39,755 bases of DNA from NCBI GenBank assembly GCA_913031305.1, contig CAJWEF010000006.1, forward strand, positions 1 to 39,755, read 5' to 3'. The notes under the pieces are model-generated. The model had not been told where the DNA came from. It searched no databases and saw nothing but the letters and a program-made list of their open reading frames with translations. Numbering within the stretch: the first letter of the stretch is position 1; every line of letters starts with the position of its first letter. This DNA is from an uncultured Acidiferrobacteraceae bacterium (lineage in GTDB: Bacteria > Pseudomonadota > Gammaproteobacteria > Arenicellales > UBA868). Both the position numbers and the translations under genes were made by a program. This document shows, in pieces, positions 357 to 14,589 of this stretch.

Positions 357-2303
357 CTAATTATATTGCATACCCATTTCAATATACCCACAGGGGCAGA
401 CATCGGCACAAATGTGGCAGCCTACGCATTTACTATAATCAGTATCCACATAACGTCCCATCGCATGAACATCCTTTTTCACCCTGGAAATAGCATCTTC
501 TGGGCAATAAATTACACATTGATCGCACTCGCTGCACAACCCGCAGGTCATACAGCGATTCGCCTCTTCAATCGCTTTCTCTTCAGTCAGCCCAGTGAAT
601 CTTTCTTCAAAATTATTAAGCACATTTTCAGAGCTTATGTCGAATTCCACTCGCCGAATCATTGGTTCTTTTTCAAAATAAGACAAAAATAATTTTTCGC
701 TAGATGCGATTTCCGCATGCGAGCGATCTTCGTAATTATGTATAGCAAAGGCTGCTGAATCAGTACCCCATATTTCCTCATGATCATATTCCACTGGCTC
801 TAGCTTGCGTTGGCGTAACTCGTCCAGTAAGCGGAAATGATGTGAATCAACCTTCGGGCGATGAGGTAGCGCCTGTTCCTGCAAGTAATAATCAATACCT
901 TCTGCAGCGATCGAAGCGTGGCCGATTGCAGTCGTTAATAAATGTGGCTTAATGGCATCACCACCCACAAAATGCCCGGGCCTGTTAGCCACCTGAAATA
1001 ACCGGTCTGCGTCCATCAATCCATGACCATTATCGAATTCTTCAATCCCGGTGTAATCACCAATTTGGCCGGTTGCACTGACGATCAGAGTGCATTCAAT
1101 ATCGAATTCTTTGCCCGACTTAACTTGCATCTCGCCTTTGTCGTCCCATTCGACTGGCACAACCCGCAATGCCACCGCCCTGCCTTCATCGTCTTTAACA
1201 ACTTCCAGTGGAGCTAAACTGTCATGGATTTCCACGCCCTCTCGAACTACCGCATCAAGTTCATGTTGGGTTGCCGGTGCCCGAGAAATCGGCCGCCTGT
1301 ATATCACCCAGACATCTCCACCCTGACGTTTGGCCACAGTAATTACATCGTGAACCGTGTGACCTAAGATCACGCTCTCTGGTTTATCTTTTGCTGTGGT
1401 GCTTTTTACATTACCGATGCGCCGCGCTACGGCCACTACGTCCATCGCTGTATCACCCGCGCCGATTACCAGGACCCTGCCATCTAGATATTTCAACCGC
1501 CCTTCATTGTAGGCTCTAAGGTACGACATACCATCAACACAATTGGGCGCATCACTGCCTGGAATAGATAAGGTGCGACCTGAATTGGCTCCAATACCCC
1601 AAAACACACAATCAAAATCACGCTCCAGTTCTTCCACCGAAACATCAGTTCCAACACGGGTGTTGAGTTTGACCTCAACCCCCATGTCAATAATTCTATT
1701 TATCTCGCCATCGAGAACCTCGCGTGGCGTGCGATAACCGGGTATCCCAAACACCATCATGCCGCCAAGTCGGTCATACGCATCAAAAATAGTGCAGGCA
1801 TGGCCCTTCTGTCGCAAAAAAAACGCTGCCGATAAGCCGGCACACCCGCCACCTACAATAGCTACCTTCTTGCCGCTGTCGATCCCTGGTTTCGGGAAAC
1901 TCAGTTTGTTTTTTAAAGCCCAGTCGCCAACATATTGCTCAACGGCATTAATGCCGACGGTTTCCTCAACCTCATTGCGGTTACAGCCGTCCTGACATGG
2001 GGCGGGGCAGACACGCCCCATCACCGAAGGAAACGGATTAGATTTCACTAGACGGCGAAAAGCATACTCCTGCCATGAAGAATCCCCATCATGTCTGTCA
2101 AGGCCTCGCACTATTGATAACCAACCGCGGATATCGTGTCCGGATGGGCAACTGGCCTGACAGGGCGGAGTGCGGTGGACGTATGTAGGGCAAATATCGG
2201 ATAAGCCATGGGATACAACATCTTTGTCGTATCTGCCCGGGCCTAATCCAGTTCCATCACCGTCGCCCTCATCGAAGCGTCGAAATGTTAGTTTCTCTTC
2301 CAT
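357..2303 (-). CDS. dsrL: DsrL-type NAD(P)H:acceptor oxidoreductase (iron-sulfur flavoprotein)
   Basis: This 648-residue protein has the layout of DsrL, the GltD-related flavoprotein that passes electrons between NAD(P)H and dissimilatory sulfite reductase in sulfur-metabolising bacteria. The N-terminal part has an iron-sulfur-type cysteine set (Cys38, 48, 52, 99, 103, 107). An FAD-binding GGGCAG motif is near residue 151 and a second Rossmann motif (GAGDTAMD) near 281. The C-terminal 65 residues carry two 4Fe-4S motifs (CMTCGLCSECDQC and CVGCHICADVC), an extension that plain glutamate-synthase small subunits lack. The length matches DsrL (about 650) and the opening FRRFDEGDGDGTGLGPGRY is typical of it. 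The ATG at 2303 has AGG five bases upstream. No dsrA, dsrB, dsrC or other dsr gene is in the window, so the electron partner is unknown. A GltD-like oxidoreductase with another partner remains possible. Confidence 0.75.
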   Translation of the reverse strand: MEEKLTFRRFDEGDGDGTGLGPGRYDKDVVSHGLSDICPTYVHRTPPCQASCPSGHDIRGWLSIVRGLDRHDGDSSWQEYAFRRLVKSNPFPSVMGRVCPAPCQDGCNRNEVEETVGINAVEQYVGDWALKNKLSFPKPGIDSGKKVAIVGGGCAGLSAAFFLRQKGHACTIFDAYDRLGGMMVFGIPGYRTPREVLDGEINRIIDMGVEVKLNTRVGTDVSVEELERDFDCVFWGIGANSGRTLSIPGSDAPNCVDGMSYLRAYNEGRLKYLDGRVLVIGAGDTAMDVVAVARRIGNVKSTTAKDKPESVILGHTVHDVITVAKRQGGDVWVIYRRPISRAPATQHELDAVVREGVEIHDSLAPLEVVKDDEGRAVALRVVPVEWDDKGEMQVKSGKEFDIECTLIVSATGQIGDYTGIEEFDNGHGLMDADRLFQVANRPGHFVGGDAIKPHLLTTAIGHASIAAEGIDYYLQEQALPHRPKVDSHHFRLLDELRQRKLEPVEYDHEEIWGTDSAAFAIHNYEDRSHAEIASSEKLFLSYFEKEPMIRRVEFDISSENVLNNFEERFTGLTEEKAIEEANRCMTCGLCSECDQCVIYCPEDAISRVKKDVHAMGRYVDTDYSKCVGCHICADVCPCGYIEMGMQYN

Positions 2304-2697: not shown

Positions 2698-3948
2698 TCA
2701 GAACCGATCCAGACGATATGGTGTGATATTTATGGGGCTGGGTTGATCGCAAACCATCGCCGCTGTCAGACGACCTGTCATCGGTGCCTGAGTCAGGCCA
2801 AGATGGCCATGACCAAACGCCGCAAATAGCCCAGCCTGTCCTGGGACTGGGCCAATGCACGGCAACGAGTCAGGCGTTGACGGCCGTGAACCCATCCACT
2901 CACTCGTATCGGCGGCATTGAGGTCTGGCAGCATGCGCTGGGCCAGGTGCGCAATCACTTTTGCCCGGCGGTAATCAGGTCCGGCGTCCAGGCCTGCGAA
3001 CTCTGCCATCCCGGCACAGCGCAGCCCCATCTCCATGGAACTCGCAGCGAATTTTCCATCACCATCCAGTACCGAATTATTTAAAGTGACTCCCGGACTG
3101 GCAAAGACCGTGTGATAGCCCCGTTCCGATTCCAGCGGAATGCGAACCCCCAGAGGCTTGAGCAGTCGGGCAGACCAGGCGCCGCTGGCCACCACGGTTC
3201 GGGGCGAACTGAACATGCCCTGGTCGGTACGAATATTAAATGTCCCGGATACATCCAGATTGAGTTCGCGCACCAGAGCTCGAGTAAACACAACGCCCTG
3301 ACTTCGCGCTTTTTGTGCCAGCACCTGTCCCAGTCTGGCTGGATTCACTGAGCGTGCCTGTTGCCCAATCAACACGGCGGCCTGGTAATGCGGTGACAAT
3401 GCCGGCTCTATTTCCCGCACTTGGTCGCCGCTGACAAATTCCAACGGCACGCCGCGCTCACGACGCAATGCCCACTGCGGCAATTCAGGATCAGCATGGC
3501 GAACATCCCGAAACACGTGGATGTAACTGGAGTCACGCACCAAGTCCTCATGATCCGTGCCGTGCAATAACCCGCGGTAAAGCTCTGGACAATCACGATT
3601 CAATGCCAGAATCGCATCGGCGATTCCACCAATGCGGGACGCCTGGGCACTGGCGAGAAAACGGACCAGCCACGGAAAAAGATGCGGAAGGTAAGCCCAG
3701 CGTAAAGCAACCGGCCCTTCCTTGGATAAAGTCCAACCCGGGATGTTCTTCCATTGCCCAGGTAGCGACTGCGGCACACACGACCACGGGGAAATCACCC
3801 CGGCGTTACCAGAGCTCGCGCCCTCCGCCGGCCCATCCCGATCGATAACTCGTACCGACTTTCCGCTGGCGGCCAGCTCCAGCGCACAACAGATACCGAT
3901 AATGCCGGCACCGATAACCGTGATGCCGGAGCCGTGGGCCTCAGGCAT
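2698..3948 (-). CDS. FAD-dependent D-amino acid dehydrogenase-like oxidoreductase (DAO/DadA family)
   Basis: The 416-residue product begins with an FAD-binding GAGIIG motif, followed by VIDRDGPAEGASSGNAGVIS, the arrangement seen in DadA-type D-amino acid dehydrogenases. The C-terminal part has the usual GSRPSTPDSLPCIGP and GHGHLGLT segments that close the FAD site. Such enzymes oxidise D-amino acids, or related secondary amines, to 2-oxo acids and pass electrons to the respiratory chain. The ATG at 3948 overlaps the end of the permease gene by 8 bases (ATGCCTGA), which argues for translational coupling; a TTG at 3960 is a less likely start. Its place at the end of a TRAP transporter operon suggests it acts on the imported compound. 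The exact substrate cannot be told from sequence; sarcosine- or proline-type substrates are alternatives. Confidence 0.82.
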   Translation of the reverse strand: MPEAHGSGITVIGAGIIGICCALELAASGKSVRVIDRDGPAEGASSGNAGVISPWSCVPQSLPGQWKNIPGWTLSKEGPVALRWAYLPHLFPWLVRFLASAQASRIGGIADAILALNRDCPELYRGLLHGTDHEDLVRDSSYIHVFRDVRHADPELPQWALRRERGVPLEFVSGDQVREIEPALSPHYQAAVLIGQQARSVNPARLGQVLAQKARSQGVVFTRALVRELNLDVSGTFNIRTDQGMFSSPRTVVASGAWSARLLKPLGVRIPLESERGYHTVFASPGVTLNNSVLDGDGKFAASSMEMGLRCAGMAEFAGLDAGPDYRRAKVIAHLAQRMLPDLNAADTSEWMGSRPSTPDSLPCIGPVPGQAGLFAAFGHGHLGLTQAPMTGRLTAAMVCDQPSPINITPYRLDRF

Positions 3949-6034
3949 TTCTGGAAACAACAGGCTTGGCGCCTCGCCAAGCCACCACCTGCTGAATCAG
4001 GACTGGCGCCACAAATACCAATGCAAAAAGATCGCTCTGCATTCCGGGCGCAACCAGCAGAACGCCGGCAAAGGCCATCGCCCAGCGGATGATCACCGGC
4101 ATCCGTACCAGGAAGAACCCGGCAACCGAGGTTGCCACCATAAAGATACCAACCGCACAACTCAGCGTGGTGGAAAGAAAAGCACTCCAGGTGAAGTAAT
4201 CCTCAATCACAATCAGCATCGCCGGAGAGTAGATAAACACCATGGGTACCATCAGTTTGGCGATACCCAGGGTAAACGCCGACACACCAGTTCGAAAAGG
4301 ATTAGCACCCGCGATGCCCGCGGCAGCGTACGCCGACGCACAGACTGGTGGAGTAATCTCTGAGATGACTCCGTAATACAAAACAAAAAGATGTGATGCT
4401 AACGGTGGTACGCCGAGATTGGCCAGTGCTGGCTGAGCGACTGTAACAAGCATGATATAGAGCGCCGTCGTGGGCAAGCCAGCCCCCATCAGAATACAGG
4501 TAATCGCAATCAGTATTAAAGACACGAACAGGGTTAATCCCTCTACTGAAAAATCAACCAGCGGAATCCACGAAAAGGCAGAGTAAAGGTTCTCTCCAAT
4601 CGCAAGTGCCCCGTTTGTGACCATAAAACCTAACCGAAAGCCCAATCCTGTGGAGTTGACGACACCAACTACAATGCCGATCGCGGCACAGACTGCGCCG
4701 ACGGCCAGCGCGTAACGTACGCCAGTCACACAGCCATCGAGAATATCGCGCACGCCGATGCGATGCATCGGATTGACCAATCCCACCGCCAATGCAGTCG
4801 TGATACCCCAGAAGGCCGCCATGTGCGGCGAATAGCCGCTAAACAATACATAGATCAGCGCTACCAGCGGCAAAGCTGTCGGCCATCCTCTTTTCAGCAC
4901 CGCCAACAGTCGGGGGATCTCTTCCGCTGGCAATCCTTTGAGGCCCAATCGCTTGGCCTTGAAGTGCACAATCGACAGTACACCCACGTAATGCATGGCT
5001 GCCGGTACCATTGCTGCGATCACGATAGTGGTATAGGGCACCTCCAAAAACTCGGCCATCACAAAAGCTGCCGCGCCCATGATTGGTGGGGTAATCTGAC
5101 CCCCAGCGCTGGAAGCGGCTTCAACCCCGCCGGCGAGGTGCCCGGGGTATCCCATGCGCTTCATATTAGGAATGGTCAGCGAGCCGGTCGAGACCGTATT
5201 GGCAATAGACGACCCCGAGATGGTGCCAAAAAATGCCGATGACACGACGCTGACTTTGGCCAGGCCGCCGGTATAGCGCCCTGCCATCACTGTTGCTACG
5301 TCTACAAAGAACTGTCCCAAACCCATACGCTGTGCAAGCACGCCGAACAGTACAAAATGAAACACCACGGTGGATACGATCCACAGTGTGACGCCATAGA
5401 TACCCTCAGCCGGGAAATACATATTATTGATGTACTGCGCCCAGTTAATGCCAGGATGCTTCAGGATCATCAATGGCATGTACTGCCCAAACACAGCGTA
5501 TGCTGTGAAAAGCAGAATAATGATCGGCACCACAAACCCCAGAGTACGGCGCACAGCCTCCAGCAGTACCGCGATAAGGACGGTACCGAAAACGACATCG
5601 ATGAAAGCCGGGTCCCCCTGGCGCAGTACCTGTTCAGGTAGGAAAAACCGCCAGCCCAATAGCTCAAAATCAATCTCGTACCAGGTGATACCGACATAAA
5701 GCGATGACGAAACTCCAGCCAGGATCAGCAGCCAGTCCCAGATTGGGACATTGGAATAACGCCACCAGGTGTTTAGATGTAGTTCACGGGAATGACTTCG
5801 TTTAACCATCGGGTAACAGATAAATACCAGGATGATTACGCCCGACATATGAAAACCCATATGCCAGTAATCGACTGGAACACCGGTGCCTGCGGTTACA
5901 TAGTGGTACGCAGCAAAAAGGACAGAAAAAAAGAAGGTGAACTTAATCAGCCACGGGCCAGCCACCCTGATGTGAAGCCCTGAGTCATACTTTTTCTCAA
6001 GCTCTTCGACCTGTTTAACATCCAATTGCGCCAC
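3941..6034 (-). CDS. TAXI-type TRAP transporter, fused small/large permease
   Basis: This is a 697-residue, very hydrophobic protein with many membrane segments. An N-terminal small-subunit part (about residues 25-210, with YHYVTAG and the WDWLL segment) is fused to a large DctM-like permease holding typical motifs such as SSAFFGTISGSSIANTVSTG and EAASSAGGQITPPIMGAAAF. Fused permeases of about 650-720 residues are the norm for the TAXI branch of TRAP transporters, which use a sodium gradient to import substrates delivered by a periplasmic binding protein. The start is GTG at 6034, with GGGGAGG five bases upstream. The binding-protein gene lies just upstream and a flavoenzyme gene overlaps the 3' end, so the three form one functional unit in the inner membrane and periplasm. 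Substrate unknown; an amino acid or small acid is likely from context. Confidence 0.92.
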   Translation of the reverse strand: MAQLDVKQVEELEKKYDSGLHIRVAGPWLIKFTFFFSVLFAAYHYVTAGTGVPVDYWHMGFHMSGVIILVFICYPMVKRSHSRELHLNTWWRYSNVPIWDWLLILAGVSSSLYVGITWYEIDFELLGWRFFLPEQVLRQGDPAFIDVVFGTVLIAVLLEAVRRTLGFVVPIIILLFTAYAVFGQYMPLMILKHPGINWAQYINNMYFPAEGIYGVTLWIVSTVVFHFVLFGVLAQRMGLGQFFVDVATVMAGRYTGGLAKVSVVSSAFFGTISGSSIANTVSTGSLTIPNMKRMGYPGHLAGGVEAASSAGGQITPPIMGAAAFVMAEFLEVPYTTIVIAAMVPAAMHYVGVLSIVHFKAKRLGLKGLPAEEIPRLLAVLKRGWPTALPLVALIYVLFSGYSPHMAAFWGITTALAVGLVNPMHRIGVRDILDGCVTGVRYALAVGAVCAAIGIVVGVVNSTGLGFRLGFMVTNGALAIGENLYSAFSWIPLVDFSVEGLTLFVSLILIAITCILMGAGLPTTALYIMLVTVAQPALANLGVPPLASHLFVLYYGVISEITPPVCASAYAAAGIAGANPFRTGVSAFTLGIAKLMVPMVFIYSPAMLIVIEDYFTWSAFLSTTLSCAVGIFMVATSVAGFFLVRMPVIIRWAMAFAGVLLVAPGMQSDLFALVFVAPVLIQQVVAWRGAKPVVSRNA
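3963..3983 (-). promoter_or_regulatory. Hairpin at permease/oxidoreductase junction
   Basis: GGCTTGGCG (3963-3971) and CGCCAAGCC (3975-3983) form a perfect 9-bp stem with a 3-base loop in the last codons of the permease gene. The stem ends 14 bases before the ATG of the oxidoreductase and would cover its ribosome-binding region. It has no T-tract, so a role in translation or mRNA stability fits better than termination. The hairpin is seen in the sequence; any regulatory effect is inference. Confidence 0.5.
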
Positions 6035-6068
6035 GACATCCTCCCCTTAGTTGCTGGTCAACTCCAGC

Positions 6069-6100
6069 AAAAAACGGAGGCAGGCGCCCGCCTGCCTCCG
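6069..6100 (-). terminator. Intrinsic terminator between TAXI and permease genes
   Basis: CGGAGGCAGGCG (6075-6086) pairs perfectly with CGCCTGCCTCCG (6089-6100), and on the minus strand the stem is followed by six T (6074 down to 6069). It lies in the 93-base gap between the binding-protein and permease genes, which are transcribed in the same direction. It should therefore act as a partial terminator that leaves more binding-protein mRNA than permease mRNA, or protect the 3' end of the short transcript. Confidence 0.85.
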
Positions 6101-6127
6101 TTCCTGATTACTGCAATATTAAAGTGA

Positions 6128-7123
6128 TCAGTCGATCATGCCGATTTCTTTATAGTAACGCTCGGCACCGGGATGCAGGGGAATCAAAACACCCTTGAGC
6201 GCTGTCTCCACGCGAATGGCTTTACCTTTCGCATGACCCTTGTCCAGCAGTTTACGGGTGTTCTTATTCCACATCGCCTTGGTGATCTGATAGATCAACT
6301 CTTCAGGCTGATTAATCGATGTGACGAGTTGTCCGTTGACCGCCACTGTGGGCACATCGTAATCGATACTTTCATACACCCCAGCTGGGATATCTGAAGG
6401 CACATAGTAGGGAATAATGCCGTTGATCGCTTTGCGCTCGTCTTCGGAGAACTTGTACAGTTCAAAACCTTTAGTCGAACCCAACTGGATCAACGCAGCA
6501 AACGGAGTGCCGCCGGCATAGAAGAAAGCATCCAGCTGTCCATCAGCCAGGCGCTGGGAGCTTTGTCCTAATCCCAGTTCATGCTCATCAGCCTTGATGC
6601 CGTAGTGCTTGAGGATCATGCGCACCGATACCTGGGTGCCTGAACCCGCGGCGGCAACACCGACCCGCTTGCCATTGAGGTCCATAAGACTGGAAAGATG
6701 CTCACCTTTGGGTGTAACCAGATGCATATCTTCAGGGTACAGGTTGGCAATCACCCGGACATTGTCCTTCTTGTTGCCGACAAATTTGCCTTCACCGTTA
6801 TAACCCTGGGTCACACTCTGCGCACCAGCAAGACCGGAATCCAACTGGCCAGCGTGAATAGCGTTCATGTTAGCAACCGAGGCATTAGTCGAAACCGCAA
6901 TCGCGACCAATCCCGGCACCCCGCAGCTGCCACCCTTATCGCAGGCACGTGAGCCTGGCGGGTTGGAAATCGCGTTGGCGATAAGGCCGCCGATCGGGTA
7001 GTAAGTGCCACCGGCGCCGCCGGTGCCGATACGGAAAAACGTCATGTCCTGCGCCTGGACGCTGCCCATCATCAAGGCCAGCCCGGTGACTACCGCAGCT
7101 AGCAATCCTCTTTTGGTTATCAT
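6128..7123 (-). CDS. TAXI family TRAP transporter solute-binding protein
   Basis: The 331-residue protein starts with a clear Sec signal peptide (MITKRGLLAAVVTGLALMMG, cleavage probably after VQAQ). The mature part opens with FFRIGTGGAGGTYYPIGG, the hallmark of TAXI solute-binding proteins, and later has the GKRVGVAAAGSGTQVS and LADGQLDAFFYAGGTP segments of the family. It would bind the substrate in the periplasm and hand it to the fused permease. The ATG at 7123 was chosen over a longer frame starting at 7228 because AAGGAG sits seven bases upstream and the signal peptide starts there. Family members bind glutamate, other amino acids or dicarboxylates; the substrate here cannot be fixed. A divergent LysR gene starts 172 bases away and is the probable regulator. 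Confidence 0.93.
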   Translation of the reverse strand: MITKRGLLAAVVTGLALMMGSVQAQDMTFFRIGTGGAGGTYYPIGGLIANAISNPPGSRACDKGGSCGVPGLVAIAVSTNASVANMNAIHAGQLDSGLAGAQSVTQGYNGEGKFVGNKKDNVRVIANLYPEDMHLVTPKGEHLSSLMDLNGKRVGVAAAGSGTQVSVRMILKHYGIKADEHELGLGQSSQRLADGQLDAFFYAGGTPFAALIQLGSTKGFELYKFSEDERKAINGIIPYYVPSDIPAGVYESIDYDVPTVAVNGQLVTSINQPEELIYQITKAMWNKNTRKLLDKGHAKGKAIRVETALKGVLIPLHPGAERYYKEIGMID

Positions 7124-7240
7124 CAATATGCTCCTTAAATTGGTGTAAATACTTAGAAAAATCCGGCCTAGAGATAAATACCCTGATCCGGCGAACATCA
7201 CTATCCGCCTAAAAAGGTATATTGTCAAATTATCAAATAT

Positions 7241-11964: not shown

Positions 11965-12050
11965 AGAATCATCAGCTCTACAGGCCCTGGACTGCTGAGC
12001 TCCTGATTGCGAATTATGGCTCCTGATCAGCGCCAGGACCCTAAGATTAC

Positions 12051-12584
12051 TCAGGCAACGACAGATTGGGAAGGGCTGATCTCGCCACTGCGGTATTCGG
12101 TAATCTGCCATCCTGTTGCGTCGGCATCGAGCAACATACATGAAGCACCCCCTTTGGTATCCTCCTGACCTGCGGCTCCCGGGTTAAGCACCCAGGGCGC
12201 CTGAGTGCAGTCACAACGGCGGATATGGGTATGGCCATAAACAATGGCCCGGGCCGCGGGATATTTAGCGCGCAGGCGCTGGTGGTAATAACGGGTATCC
12301 CAGATACGGTGACCGTGCTCTACCGCCAACACGCCACCAGGCAAATCGACCTGTGCCGATTCGGCCAGATCCACGAGCCCCGTCGAATTATCGTCAGGCC
12401 ATTTTTGCGATGGATCATTATTGCCCCTAACCGCGATCAGTTCGCCGTTATCAGGCCTGATCGACTCCAGAACGGATAGCCCGCCAATATCTCCTGCGTG
12501 CACAACACAATCGGCGACGCGGGCCATTTCCTTAATAAAAGGTGCCACGAAGCCGTGGGTATCGGATAACAAGACAACTCTCAT
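12051..12584 (-). CDS. YfcE/MJ0936-family metallophosphoesterase
   Basis: A 177-residue calcineurin-like phosphoesterase of the small bacterial type. The metal-binding motifs are all present: LLSDTHG near the N terminus, HAGDIGG, RGNND, and the late VEHGH and YGHTHIRR. The family hydrolyses phosphodiesters with two metal ions; the natural substrate of YfcE-type enzymes is not settled. ATG at 12584 is preferred because LLSDTHG should sit near the start; a TTG at 12599 would add five residues. The gene is separated from lgt and from the guanidino-enzyme gene by more than 120 bases on each side, so it is probably a single-gene unit. Confidence 0.85.
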   Translation of the reverse strand: MRVVLLSDTHGFVAPFIKEMARVADCVVHAGDIGGLSVLESIRPDNGELIAVRGNNDPSQKWPDDNSTGLVDLAESAQVDLPGGVLAVEHGHRIWDTRYYHQRLRAKYPAARAIVYGHTHIRRCDCTQAPWVLNPGAAGQEDTKGGASCMLLDADATGWQITEYRSGEISPSQSVVA

Positions 12585-12736
12585 GTAACAGATTCCCAAT
12601 GAAAAATCAGTCGCCAGTCTAGAAGATCAAACAAACAAAGACTAATTAACTTTTGCAAACACGGGATCAGTCGGTCTTGTGTGCCTGCCGTCCCAACTCG
12701 CTAAAAGATCAGTTTCTGAAATGCTCGCCTATTAAA

Positions 12737-13531
12737 TCAACGTGAGAGTTTGTCGGGCTTTGCCTGAACTCTTAACAACAGCCAACATCCCACCAGGGCC
12801 ACCGGCAAACTGAGTAACTGACCCATCGTTACCCACTCCAAAGCCACGGTACCCAGGTGTGCATCCGGTTCACGGAAAAACTCCACGGCGAAACGCATCA
12901 CAGCATAAGCCACAAGAAAAAGCCCGCTGACGCGACCCAGGCTGCGCGGCCGGGCTGAATACACCCAGATCAGCAGAAACAGCACCACGCCCTCAAGACC
13001 AGCCTCATACAGCTGTGAGGGGTGCCTCGGCAGCGTCCCTGCCGCGGGGAAAACCATTGCCCAGGGTGAATCGCTGACCCGTCCCCACAATTCCTGGTTG
13101 ATAAAGTTACCGATTCGCCCCGCGCATAGGCCAGGCGCACACAATGGTGTCAAAAAATCAGCCACCGACAGGAAGCTCTTAGAAAAGCGACGTGCAAAAA
13201 GAAATACAGCGATACTGGCACCAATCAAGCCGCCATGAAACGACATCCCACCGGACCAGACTGACAACAGCTCCACCGGGTGCAAAAAATAGTAGCCAGG
13301 GTTATAAAACACCACGTACCCCAGGCGGCCACCAACCACAGCACCAATGGCCACATAAAATACCAGATCCCAGACTTGTGAAGAAGTCCAGTCGACATCA
13401 GCCTTGCGGGCACGATAAAGACCCAGCATACCGCCAGTCATGAAGGCGATCAGGTACATAACACCGTACCAGTGCACAACCAGCGGCCCTACGCTGATCG
13501 CAACCGGATTAATGTCGGGATAAATTAACAT
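12737..13531 (-). CDS. lgt: Prolipoprotein diacylglyceryl transferase
   Basis: The 264-residue integral membrane protein attaches diacylglycerol from phosphatidylglycerol to the lipobox Cys of prolipoproteins, the first step of lipoprotein maturation. It shows the Lgt signature GRIGNFINQELWGR near residue 140, the VWSGGMSFHGGLIG segment holding the essential His near residue 100, the opening YPDINPVAISVGPLVVHWYG and about seven membrane segments. The length is typical. ATG at 13531 fits the usual Lgt start; a TTG at 13546 lies further upstream. It is not paired with thyA as in E. coli. The divergent gene for an exported protein begins about 200 bases away, leaving room for promoters in both directions. 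A LysM lipoprotein encoded further along the window is among its likely clients. Confidence 0.95.
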   Translation of the reverse strand: MLIYPDINPVAISVGPLVVHWYGVMYLIAFMTGGMLGLYRARKADVDWTSSQVWDLVFYVAIGAVVGGRLGYVVFYNPGYYFLHPVELLSVWSGGMSFHGGLIGASIAVFLFARRFSKSFLSVADFLTPLCAPGLCAGRIGNFINQELWGRVSDSPWAMVFPAAGTLPRHPSQLYEAGLEGVVLFLLIWVYSARPRSLGRVSGLFLVAYAVMRFAVEFFREPDAHLGTVALEWVTMGQLLSLPVALVGCWLLLRVQAKPDKLSR

Positions 13532-13728
13532 TGCCTGTCGAGCCAATAAATAAAAAGAGTGTTCAGATCAAAAACGGGTATCCGAGTATAGCCGTTCGCT
13601 TCCTGTGTTATCGTGACGCTGCTAGCGGAAAAATATGTATGATTAGACCGCCTTCCACGTCTTATCAATTACGGCAACCCGGGCTCTTGCGACCAGATCA
13701 ACATACAAACCAAGCACCAGGACGACTG

Positions 13729-14589
13729 ATGCATAAGATGTACAAAGTGCTGGCTAACATCAGCGCTTGTTGGGTTCTCGCTCAGGGTGCGCTGCAAACC
13801 AGGCGCCGCATTGGCCAGATGGCTGCAGCCGCCCTGCTTGCCTTCGCAGTCCAATCATCAGAGGCGGCTACCCGATTTCTGATCGACACCATCGATAACG
13901 GTATAGCCGGCAAAGCGCAGATACTGATCAGCGATGGCCGTATCCGACTGACCCATTCCGCCACACCGCGCCAGGAGATACTATTCTCGGCCAGCGACCG
14001 ACAGGTGCTCTTGATCCGACACGCCCGAAAGGAACTTACCCGGGTTGATCCCGATGCAATACAACGCTCAGTCGATCAGGTCTCGGGCATTGCCACGCAA
14101 CTGCAAGCGCATCGTGACAACCTGACTGAGGAAAAACGCGCGCAACTTGACGCGATGCTAAAAAGCCTGGGTATCGCCGACCCAGCCGGTATGTCCGCAA
14201 CAGCTCTGACAATAACGGCTACGGGGCAAGCCGGCCAGGTGGCCGAGCGGGCATGTCAGTGGTGGGCCATCAACCAGGGTGAAAAACTTACCGGACGCAC
14301 CTGTCTTGCCGACAATGAAACCCTGGCAATCGACAATGGGGATTTCGCCACACTGCTGACCCTGGCTACTTATGTCCATGAGTTGCAGCGCACTGCAGGC
14401 ACACTGCTGTCGACGCTGGGTTTCTCACTTCCCCCGATTGGTCTTGGCGACGGACGATCAATACCGATCCGCCTTGAGAGCACGGCACAAGGTATTGTCG
14501 CTACCCTTAGCGCTGTGGATCACCTGGACGTGTCATTGCGTCTGTTGGCGCCGAGCGGCTACCGGGTTATCGAGATGTCTCAAAACTAA
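13729..14589 (+). CDS. Exported protein of unknown function, weakly like DUF4412 proteins
   Basis: A 286-residue protein with a long N-terminal region, three arginines and then a hydrophobic stretch ending in AVQSSEAA, which looks like a secretion signal with a 30-residue leader. The mature start (TRFLIDTIDNG...ILISDGRIRL, then ILFSASDRQVLLIRHARKEL) resembles the beta-strand pattern of small exported DUF4412-type proteins, in which a strand of 'ISDGRIR' type is followed by a 'stored as a variable, then bound' pair of strands. A helical middle follows (about residues 110-150). ATG at 13729 has AGGA seven bases upstream; the frame is open further back to 13531, but that would overlap lgt. It probably resides in the periplasm. 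The role is unknown. It converges on the acetoacetyl-CoA synthetase gene with only 16 bases between. Confidence 0.72.
   Translation: MHKMYKVLANISACWVLAQGALQTRRRIGQMAAAALLAFAVQSSEAATRFLIDTIDNGIAGKAQILISDGRIRLTHSATPRQEILFSASDRQVLLIRHARKELTRVDPDAIQRSVDQVSGIATQLQAHRDNLTEEKRAQLDAMLKSLGIADPAGMSATALTITATGQAGQVAERACQWWAINQGEKLTGRTCLADNETLAIDNGDFATLLTLATYVHELQRTAGTLLSTLGFSLPPIGLGDGRSIPIRLESTAQGIVATLSAVDHLDVSLRLLAPSGYRVIEMSQN

Follow-up and report, generated by a model that had tools for sequence, protein, structure and literature searches.

A second DsrL of DsrL-1A build with a predicted NADP(H) signature, unlinked from the dsr operon of its genome

Described DsrL types and the present protein

The enzyme rDsrAB oxidises sulfur to sulfite, and in Allochromatium vinosum DsrL-1A carries the electrons to NAD+ (Löffler et al. 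2020, PMC7596348). In the parts of that article covered here, DsrL-2, which is NADP(H)-specific and has a YRR triplet, is distinguished from DsrL-1, which is devoid of it; the residues holding the NADP phosphate in NfnB are Y310-R311-R312, and DsrL-1A is marked by an insert of about 32 amino acids in the NAD(P) domain and by a linker about 30 amino acids longer. A genome-based rule, which takes DsrL-1 as NAD-dependent and oxidative and DsrL-2 with YRR as NADP-dependent, predicts the direction and the cofactor of dissimilatory sulfur metabolism.

The window, that is, the whole stretch of DNA that we analysed, comprises positions 1-39755 of contig C6, one of the 295 contigs of a draft genome of 2.77 Mb that is 91% complete. 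On its minus strand, at 357..2303, an intact frame of 648 uninterrupted codons encodes the second DsrL of this genome, a YRR-bearing, DsrL-1A-like iron-sulfur flavoprotein of 648 amino acids (P0001). Judging from its sequence, it is probably a DsrL of DsrL-1A build whose signature is that expected for NADP(H). We predict that it links rDsrAB to NADP(H), a prediction that extends to this protein what one motif and three characterised enzymes indicate. This reading is supported by the sequence, by the pairing of two DsrL types, by where the genes lie in their genomes and by fixed differences confined to the NAD(P) domain.

With DsrL-1A of the A. vinosum type, the protein shares the order of domains, the cluster cysteines, the insert, the long linker and the co-occurrence with dsrABEFHCMKJOP. 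It differs in having YRR and GxGDTA, whereas DsrL-1A as described in the covered parts of PMC7596348 has no YRR, and in being a second copy in addition to a NAD-type DsrL, located apart from the dsr operon in this genome. With DsrL-2 of the Desulfurella amilsii type it has YRR in common, a triplet associated with NADP(H) specificity, but according to the description in the same source DsrL-2 has neither the insert nor the long linker, and our protein has both. In Myxococcales SURF_8, the second gene of a tandem dsrL1L2 (L066:9895-11799) belongs to the YRR group of the window gene, with 65% identity. That pair was called DsrL-1A, with a possible heterodimer, and in the covered parts of PMC7596348 we found no mention of its YRR or of such pairing in other Proteobacteria. 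NfnB/NfnA, StnC and GltD have the same flavoprotein fold, and YRR aligns with the NADP site of NfnB, but these proteins lack the DsrL-1A insert, show 22-31% identity in structural alignments and have other partners. In the main text of open-access articles, the literature covered, neither YRR in DsrL-1A nor a pairing of the two types was found described, and novelty is provisional to that extent.

Family membership and cofactor sites

The match to DsrL from end to end, including both C-terminal 4Fe-4S motifs, on which the initial annotation was built, was borne out by our analysis. The NCBIfam model NF009410/PRK12771 gave 682.7 bits for P0001 (cut-off 516) and 707 bits for the DsrL of its genome's dsr operon, which lies on contig C7, and the two proteins are homologous from end to end, with 55% identity over residues 4-645. 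The Fe-S motifs expected of a DsrL, one N-terminal and two C-terminal, and the FAD and NAD(P) sites are all present. Compared with the closest homologue (L053), dN was 0.11 with dS saturated, indicating purifying selection on the window gene. With an intact frame, conserved cofactor motifs and low dN, the suggestion that the gene is a remnant becomes unlikely.

The N-terminal Fe-S domain (1983..2192, minus strand, as are all features of the protein) contains cysteines 38, 48, 52, 99, 103 and 107 and is followed by the glycine motif of the FAD site, GGGCAG, at residues 151-156 (1836..1853), within the Pfam Pyr_redox_2 domain. Cluster cysteines and FAD motifs are common to YRR and NAD-type DsrL. 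The NAD(P) site reads GAGDTA at residues 281-286 (1446..1463), where position 286 is alanine in our protein and serine in every NAD-type DsrL compared. The insert hallmark of DsrL-1A (PMC7596348) occupies about residues 300-328 (1320..1406); in the alignment it is missing in StnC and Nfn, and it is of equal length in YRR and NAD-type DsrL. The YRR triplet, residues 335-337 (1293..1301), coincides in the alignment, residue for residue, with Y310-R311-R312 of Thermotoga NfnB (4ylf) and forms the predicted site for the 2'-phosphate of NADP. The other hallmark, the long linker (about residues 479-552, 648..869), measures 74 residues in 26 of 26 YRR rows and 73-77 in NAD-type rows, and the C-terminal ferredoxin domain with its two 4Fe-4S motifs spans cysteines 584-636 (396..554).

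In the alignment, the window protein and its kin read GxGDTA...YRR and the ordinary copies GGGDTS...[S/A/T]LF, with SLF, ALF or TLF at the position of the triplet; the C7 operon DsrL, with GGGDTS...TALF, is of the NAD type. Between 29 YRR and 41 NAD-type proteins, no positions other than 286, 287, 291, 334, 336, 337, 343 and 363 were at least 85% fixed and different, and position 335 is Y in the former and S, A or T in the latter, every fixed difference thus falling within the NAD(P) domain (286-363). Structural searches retrieved Nfn, Stn and GltD proteins as the closest solved folds. The AlphaFold model of the window protein has a mean pLDDT of 67.8, mostly high in the flavoprotein core and low in the Fe-S domains and linker, and in it YRR starts where strand 330-335 ends. 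We take the end of this strand to be the usual place of contact with the 2'-phosphate of NADP in a Rossmann fold.

Set against the published subgroups, the protein therefore has both marks of DsrL-1A, namely the insert of about 32 amino acids and the linker about 30 amino acids longer, but not its lack of YRR; it has the YRR of DsrL-2 at the NfnB position, but neither the short linker nor the NAD(P) domain of reduced length that PMC7596348 describes. The combination of insert, long linker and YRR places it outside both subgroups, and because of YRR we file it as a DsrL-1A variant and not as a plain DsrL-1A.

Genomic setting and origin of the gene

The gene had been described as an orphan with no sulfite reductase genes in view. 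Within the 39,755 bases of the window, dsrAB, dsrC and dsrMKJOP were indeed not found, but contig C7 of the same genome carries a complete cluster, dsrABEFHCMKLJOP, followed by a dsrN-like gene, and a TauD/DsrQ-like gene is transcribed divergently from dsrA. A cluster of this kind is what the initial annotation itself had named as its refutation, so that the window gene is not an orphan DsrL. Profile searches placed dsrA above the cut-off with dsrB adjoining, as the one dsrAB pair of the genome, the oxidative type of which we assigned from the dsrEFH and dsrL content. Three DsrC-like genes were found, two on C7 and one elsewhere. Among the earlier proposals, that of a part displaced from a dsr cluster is the nearest to our findings, since in relatives the homologous gene lies inside or a few kb from such a cluster. 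A different acceptor is supported only as regards the nicotinamide cofactor, given the NADP-type pocket, and not for a different sulfur enzyme. The canonical DsrL of a genome from another genus of the family (G026, L051) is almost identical to the C7 copy (L002), which suggests recent transfer or the cross-binning of one contig.

The window begins at base 1 of C6, and a mere 356 bp separate the gene from this end of the contig; the context is therefore one-sided, and the surrounding 40 kb invoked by the initial annotation cover only one flank. Genus members share the gene order of the contig from 2698 on, at 80-91% identity, and synteny breaks exactly at 2698, the end of the neighbouring gene. 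The segment 1..2697 has no counterpart in genus relatives and a lower G+C, 0.49 (0.488) against about 0.55 (0.53-0.59 for neighbours), with a GC3 of 0.456 against 0.52-0.64. The YRR gene was absent from every genus genome searched. We interpret the gene as probably acquired horizontally by this genome, and a recent date would agree with these signs.

The same signs also fit a chimeric assembly end, in which case the gene would come from another community member and not belong to this genome, and the position close to a contig end in a bin of 295 contigs adds to them. We regard this as possible but on the whole doubtful. Horizontal acquisition predicts an identical break in synteny, composition and distribution; the copy in L053 is also foreign in composition (0.435 in a locus of 0.311) and yet lies inside a 425-kb contig; and the flanks of the window gene, 1-356 and 2304-2697, match no other locus bearing it. 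The protein class is real whichever way the contig end resolves. Misbinning of the whole contig was rejected, given the 80-91% identity and synteny from 2698 onward, and so was viral carriage, no relative being present in IMG/VR.

As for the neighbours, the decayed dehydrogenase fragment that had been proposed found no support: the ORF at 40-312 has no Pfam match even at an E value of 1 and no credible PDB match, and no dehydrogenase remnant could be recognised at 1-356 in these comparisons. The flavoenzyme and TRAP unit is real, consisting at 2698-7228 of an FAD-dependent oxidoreductase of the DAO family, a fused TRAP permease and a TAXI solute-binding protein kept together in several genus members. 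It holds no clue to DsrL function, however, because genus relatives have it without the DsrL gene, and we rejected a function deduced from it.

Two DsrL types in one genome and their proposed roles

Close homologues of the window protein in public genomes are 63-84% identical and reside mostly inside or near dsr clusters. The YRR relatives belong to Rhodospirillales, Rhodobacterales, some Gammaproteobacteria and one myxobacterial MAG, often in tandem with an ordinary copy. Between dsrK and dsrJ, many YRR copies of Rhodospirillales MAGs and that of SURF_8 form a tandem with an ordinary DsrL; the YRR copy of gammaproteobacterial MAGs is about 4-11 kb from dsrA; and Rhodobacterales carry tandem pairs with a YRR-type homologue at 57-59% identity, among them Marimonas arenosa KCTC 52189, whose two paralogues are at L075:10001-11923 and 12006-13916. 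YRR-type genes unlinked from dsr clusters were also observed in L209 (G387), L133 (G109) and L062 (G128). A shared operon or common neighbours were looked for around these copies and the window gene, and none were found.

Our sample consisted of the window's genome, 27 genomes carrying or close to the YRR type and an even phylum sample. Both types were found in 24 genomes including the window's, each with one NAD-type and one YRR copy except for a second YRR copy in G123, a count that is not a frequency because the 27 genomes were chosen for carrying the YRR type or for nearness to it. Nine further genomes with DsrL came from the even phylum sample, two with both types and seven with a single GGGDTS copy without YRR. 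The recurrence of DsrL-1A with YRR breaks the one-to-one rule between type and cofactor. The YRR type alone was found in six MAGs, a number limited by MAG incompleteness. The dsr cluster of two such MAGs (...CMK-JOP) has no dsrL at the usual place, a hint that the YRR type is able to serve rDsrAB by itself; in two others (L059, L060) the YRR copy occupies that place. An exception to the pairing is G029, a member of the family with two NAD-type copies (L135, L136) in a bin with 6% contamination. G123 has three DsrL, that is, two of the YRR type in tandem (L057:2-3544) and one of the NAD type on another contig.

In a whole-protein tree obtained by a quick method, the two types were split by one change. 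Once the NAD(P) domain was removed, the YRR proteins no longer formed one group, the Rhodobacterales-type and G109 copies joining the gammaproteobacterial NAD-type group, and YRR monophyly was rejected (p-AU 0.0007). In contrast, the NAD(P) domain alone, with the diagnostic columns excluded, placed all YRR proteins on one side with a support of 98, the forced alternative being rejected (p-AU 0.0007). Both p-AU values are indicative only, because the groups were defined and named once the trees had been seen. The window protein grouped with the gammaproteobacterial L053-L056 in all partitions. A single ancient duplication was dropped as an explanation, since without the NAD(P) domain the YRR proteins do not form one clade. 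The straightforward reading of the partitioned trees, on which conclusions about history rest and which cover sequences other than DsrL-1B and DsrL-2, is that the NAD(P) domain was exchanged between paralogues or that the rest of the gene was converted.

If the predicted coupling is correct, the YRR DsrL would dock on the same rDsrAB as the ordinary DsrL, take electrons freed in the oxidation of sulfur to sulfite and deliver them to NADP+ by way of its Fe-S clusters and FAD; NADH would be the product of the ordinary DsrL. The cell could then make NADPH straight from sulfur; the backward run, a sulfite reduction driven by NADPH, would be possible in principle. Such a direct source of NADPH would bear on how sulfur oxidation may power CO2 fixation and biosynthesis. 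The RuBisCO cycle is a consumer of NADPH in many bacteria, and the genome encodes RuBisCO. It also encodes a transhydrogenase, so NADPH supply does not depend on the YRR DsrL. Against the proposed role stand the location of the gene apart from the dsr operon, both in this genome and in G109, G387 and G128, and its absence from the genus relatives.

Both copies might do the same job, with YRR neutral or merely broadening specificity, as the alike Fe-S and FAD motifs and the residual NADP activity of A. vinosum DsrL-1A (PMC7596348, as far as covered) would allow. This seems quite unlikely to us, considering that the types are distinct in every pair, that all fixed differences fall in the NAD(P) domain and that the types are maintained although the remainder of the protein has a different history. 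Another reading is that the paralogues form a heterodimer, giving one rDsrABL complex with two outlets, for NAD and for NADP. In favour of it, the DsrL of A. vinosum forms a homodimer, a heterodimer of L1 and L2 was proposed for SURF_8 (PMC7596348), and the genes are in tandem in many genomes, but with unlinked copies in four genomes, including the present one, and six MAGs with the YRR copy only, the pair is not obligatory, and we consider the heterodimer rather unlikely. An oxidoreductase of the GltD/Nfn kind, with an unrelated partner and a different acceptor, would agree with the location away from dsr and with the fold common to Nfn, StnC and GltD. It is highly improbable, and already largely refuted, in view of the 54-84% identity to DsrL proteins over the full length, of the presence of both DsrL-1A hallmarks, insert and linker, of close homologues in the dsrL slot between dsrK and dsrJ, and of the other GltD-like proteins of the genome, which reach at most 38% identity to the window protein over part of its length.

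Returning to an NADP(H)-coupled second DsrL, we see about even chances that many sulfur-oxidising Proteobacteria possess an rDsr system with two outlets, in which two DsrL paralogues serving one rDsrAB split the electrons between NAD+ and NADP+ and an NAD(P) cassette has passed from lineage to lineage while the types were kept apart. The window gene would then be a horizontally mobile member of the NADP branch.

A minor observation concerns the surroundings of dsrA. Several gammaproteobacterial genomes, that of the window among them, have a gene for a Cas6-family protein next to dsrA, adjoining TauD/DsrQ and an additional DsrC-like gene; examples are L053:15998-16666, with PF09559, and L017:3756-4517 on contig C7. 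A Cas6-family protein is an unexpected neighbour for a sulfur cluster.
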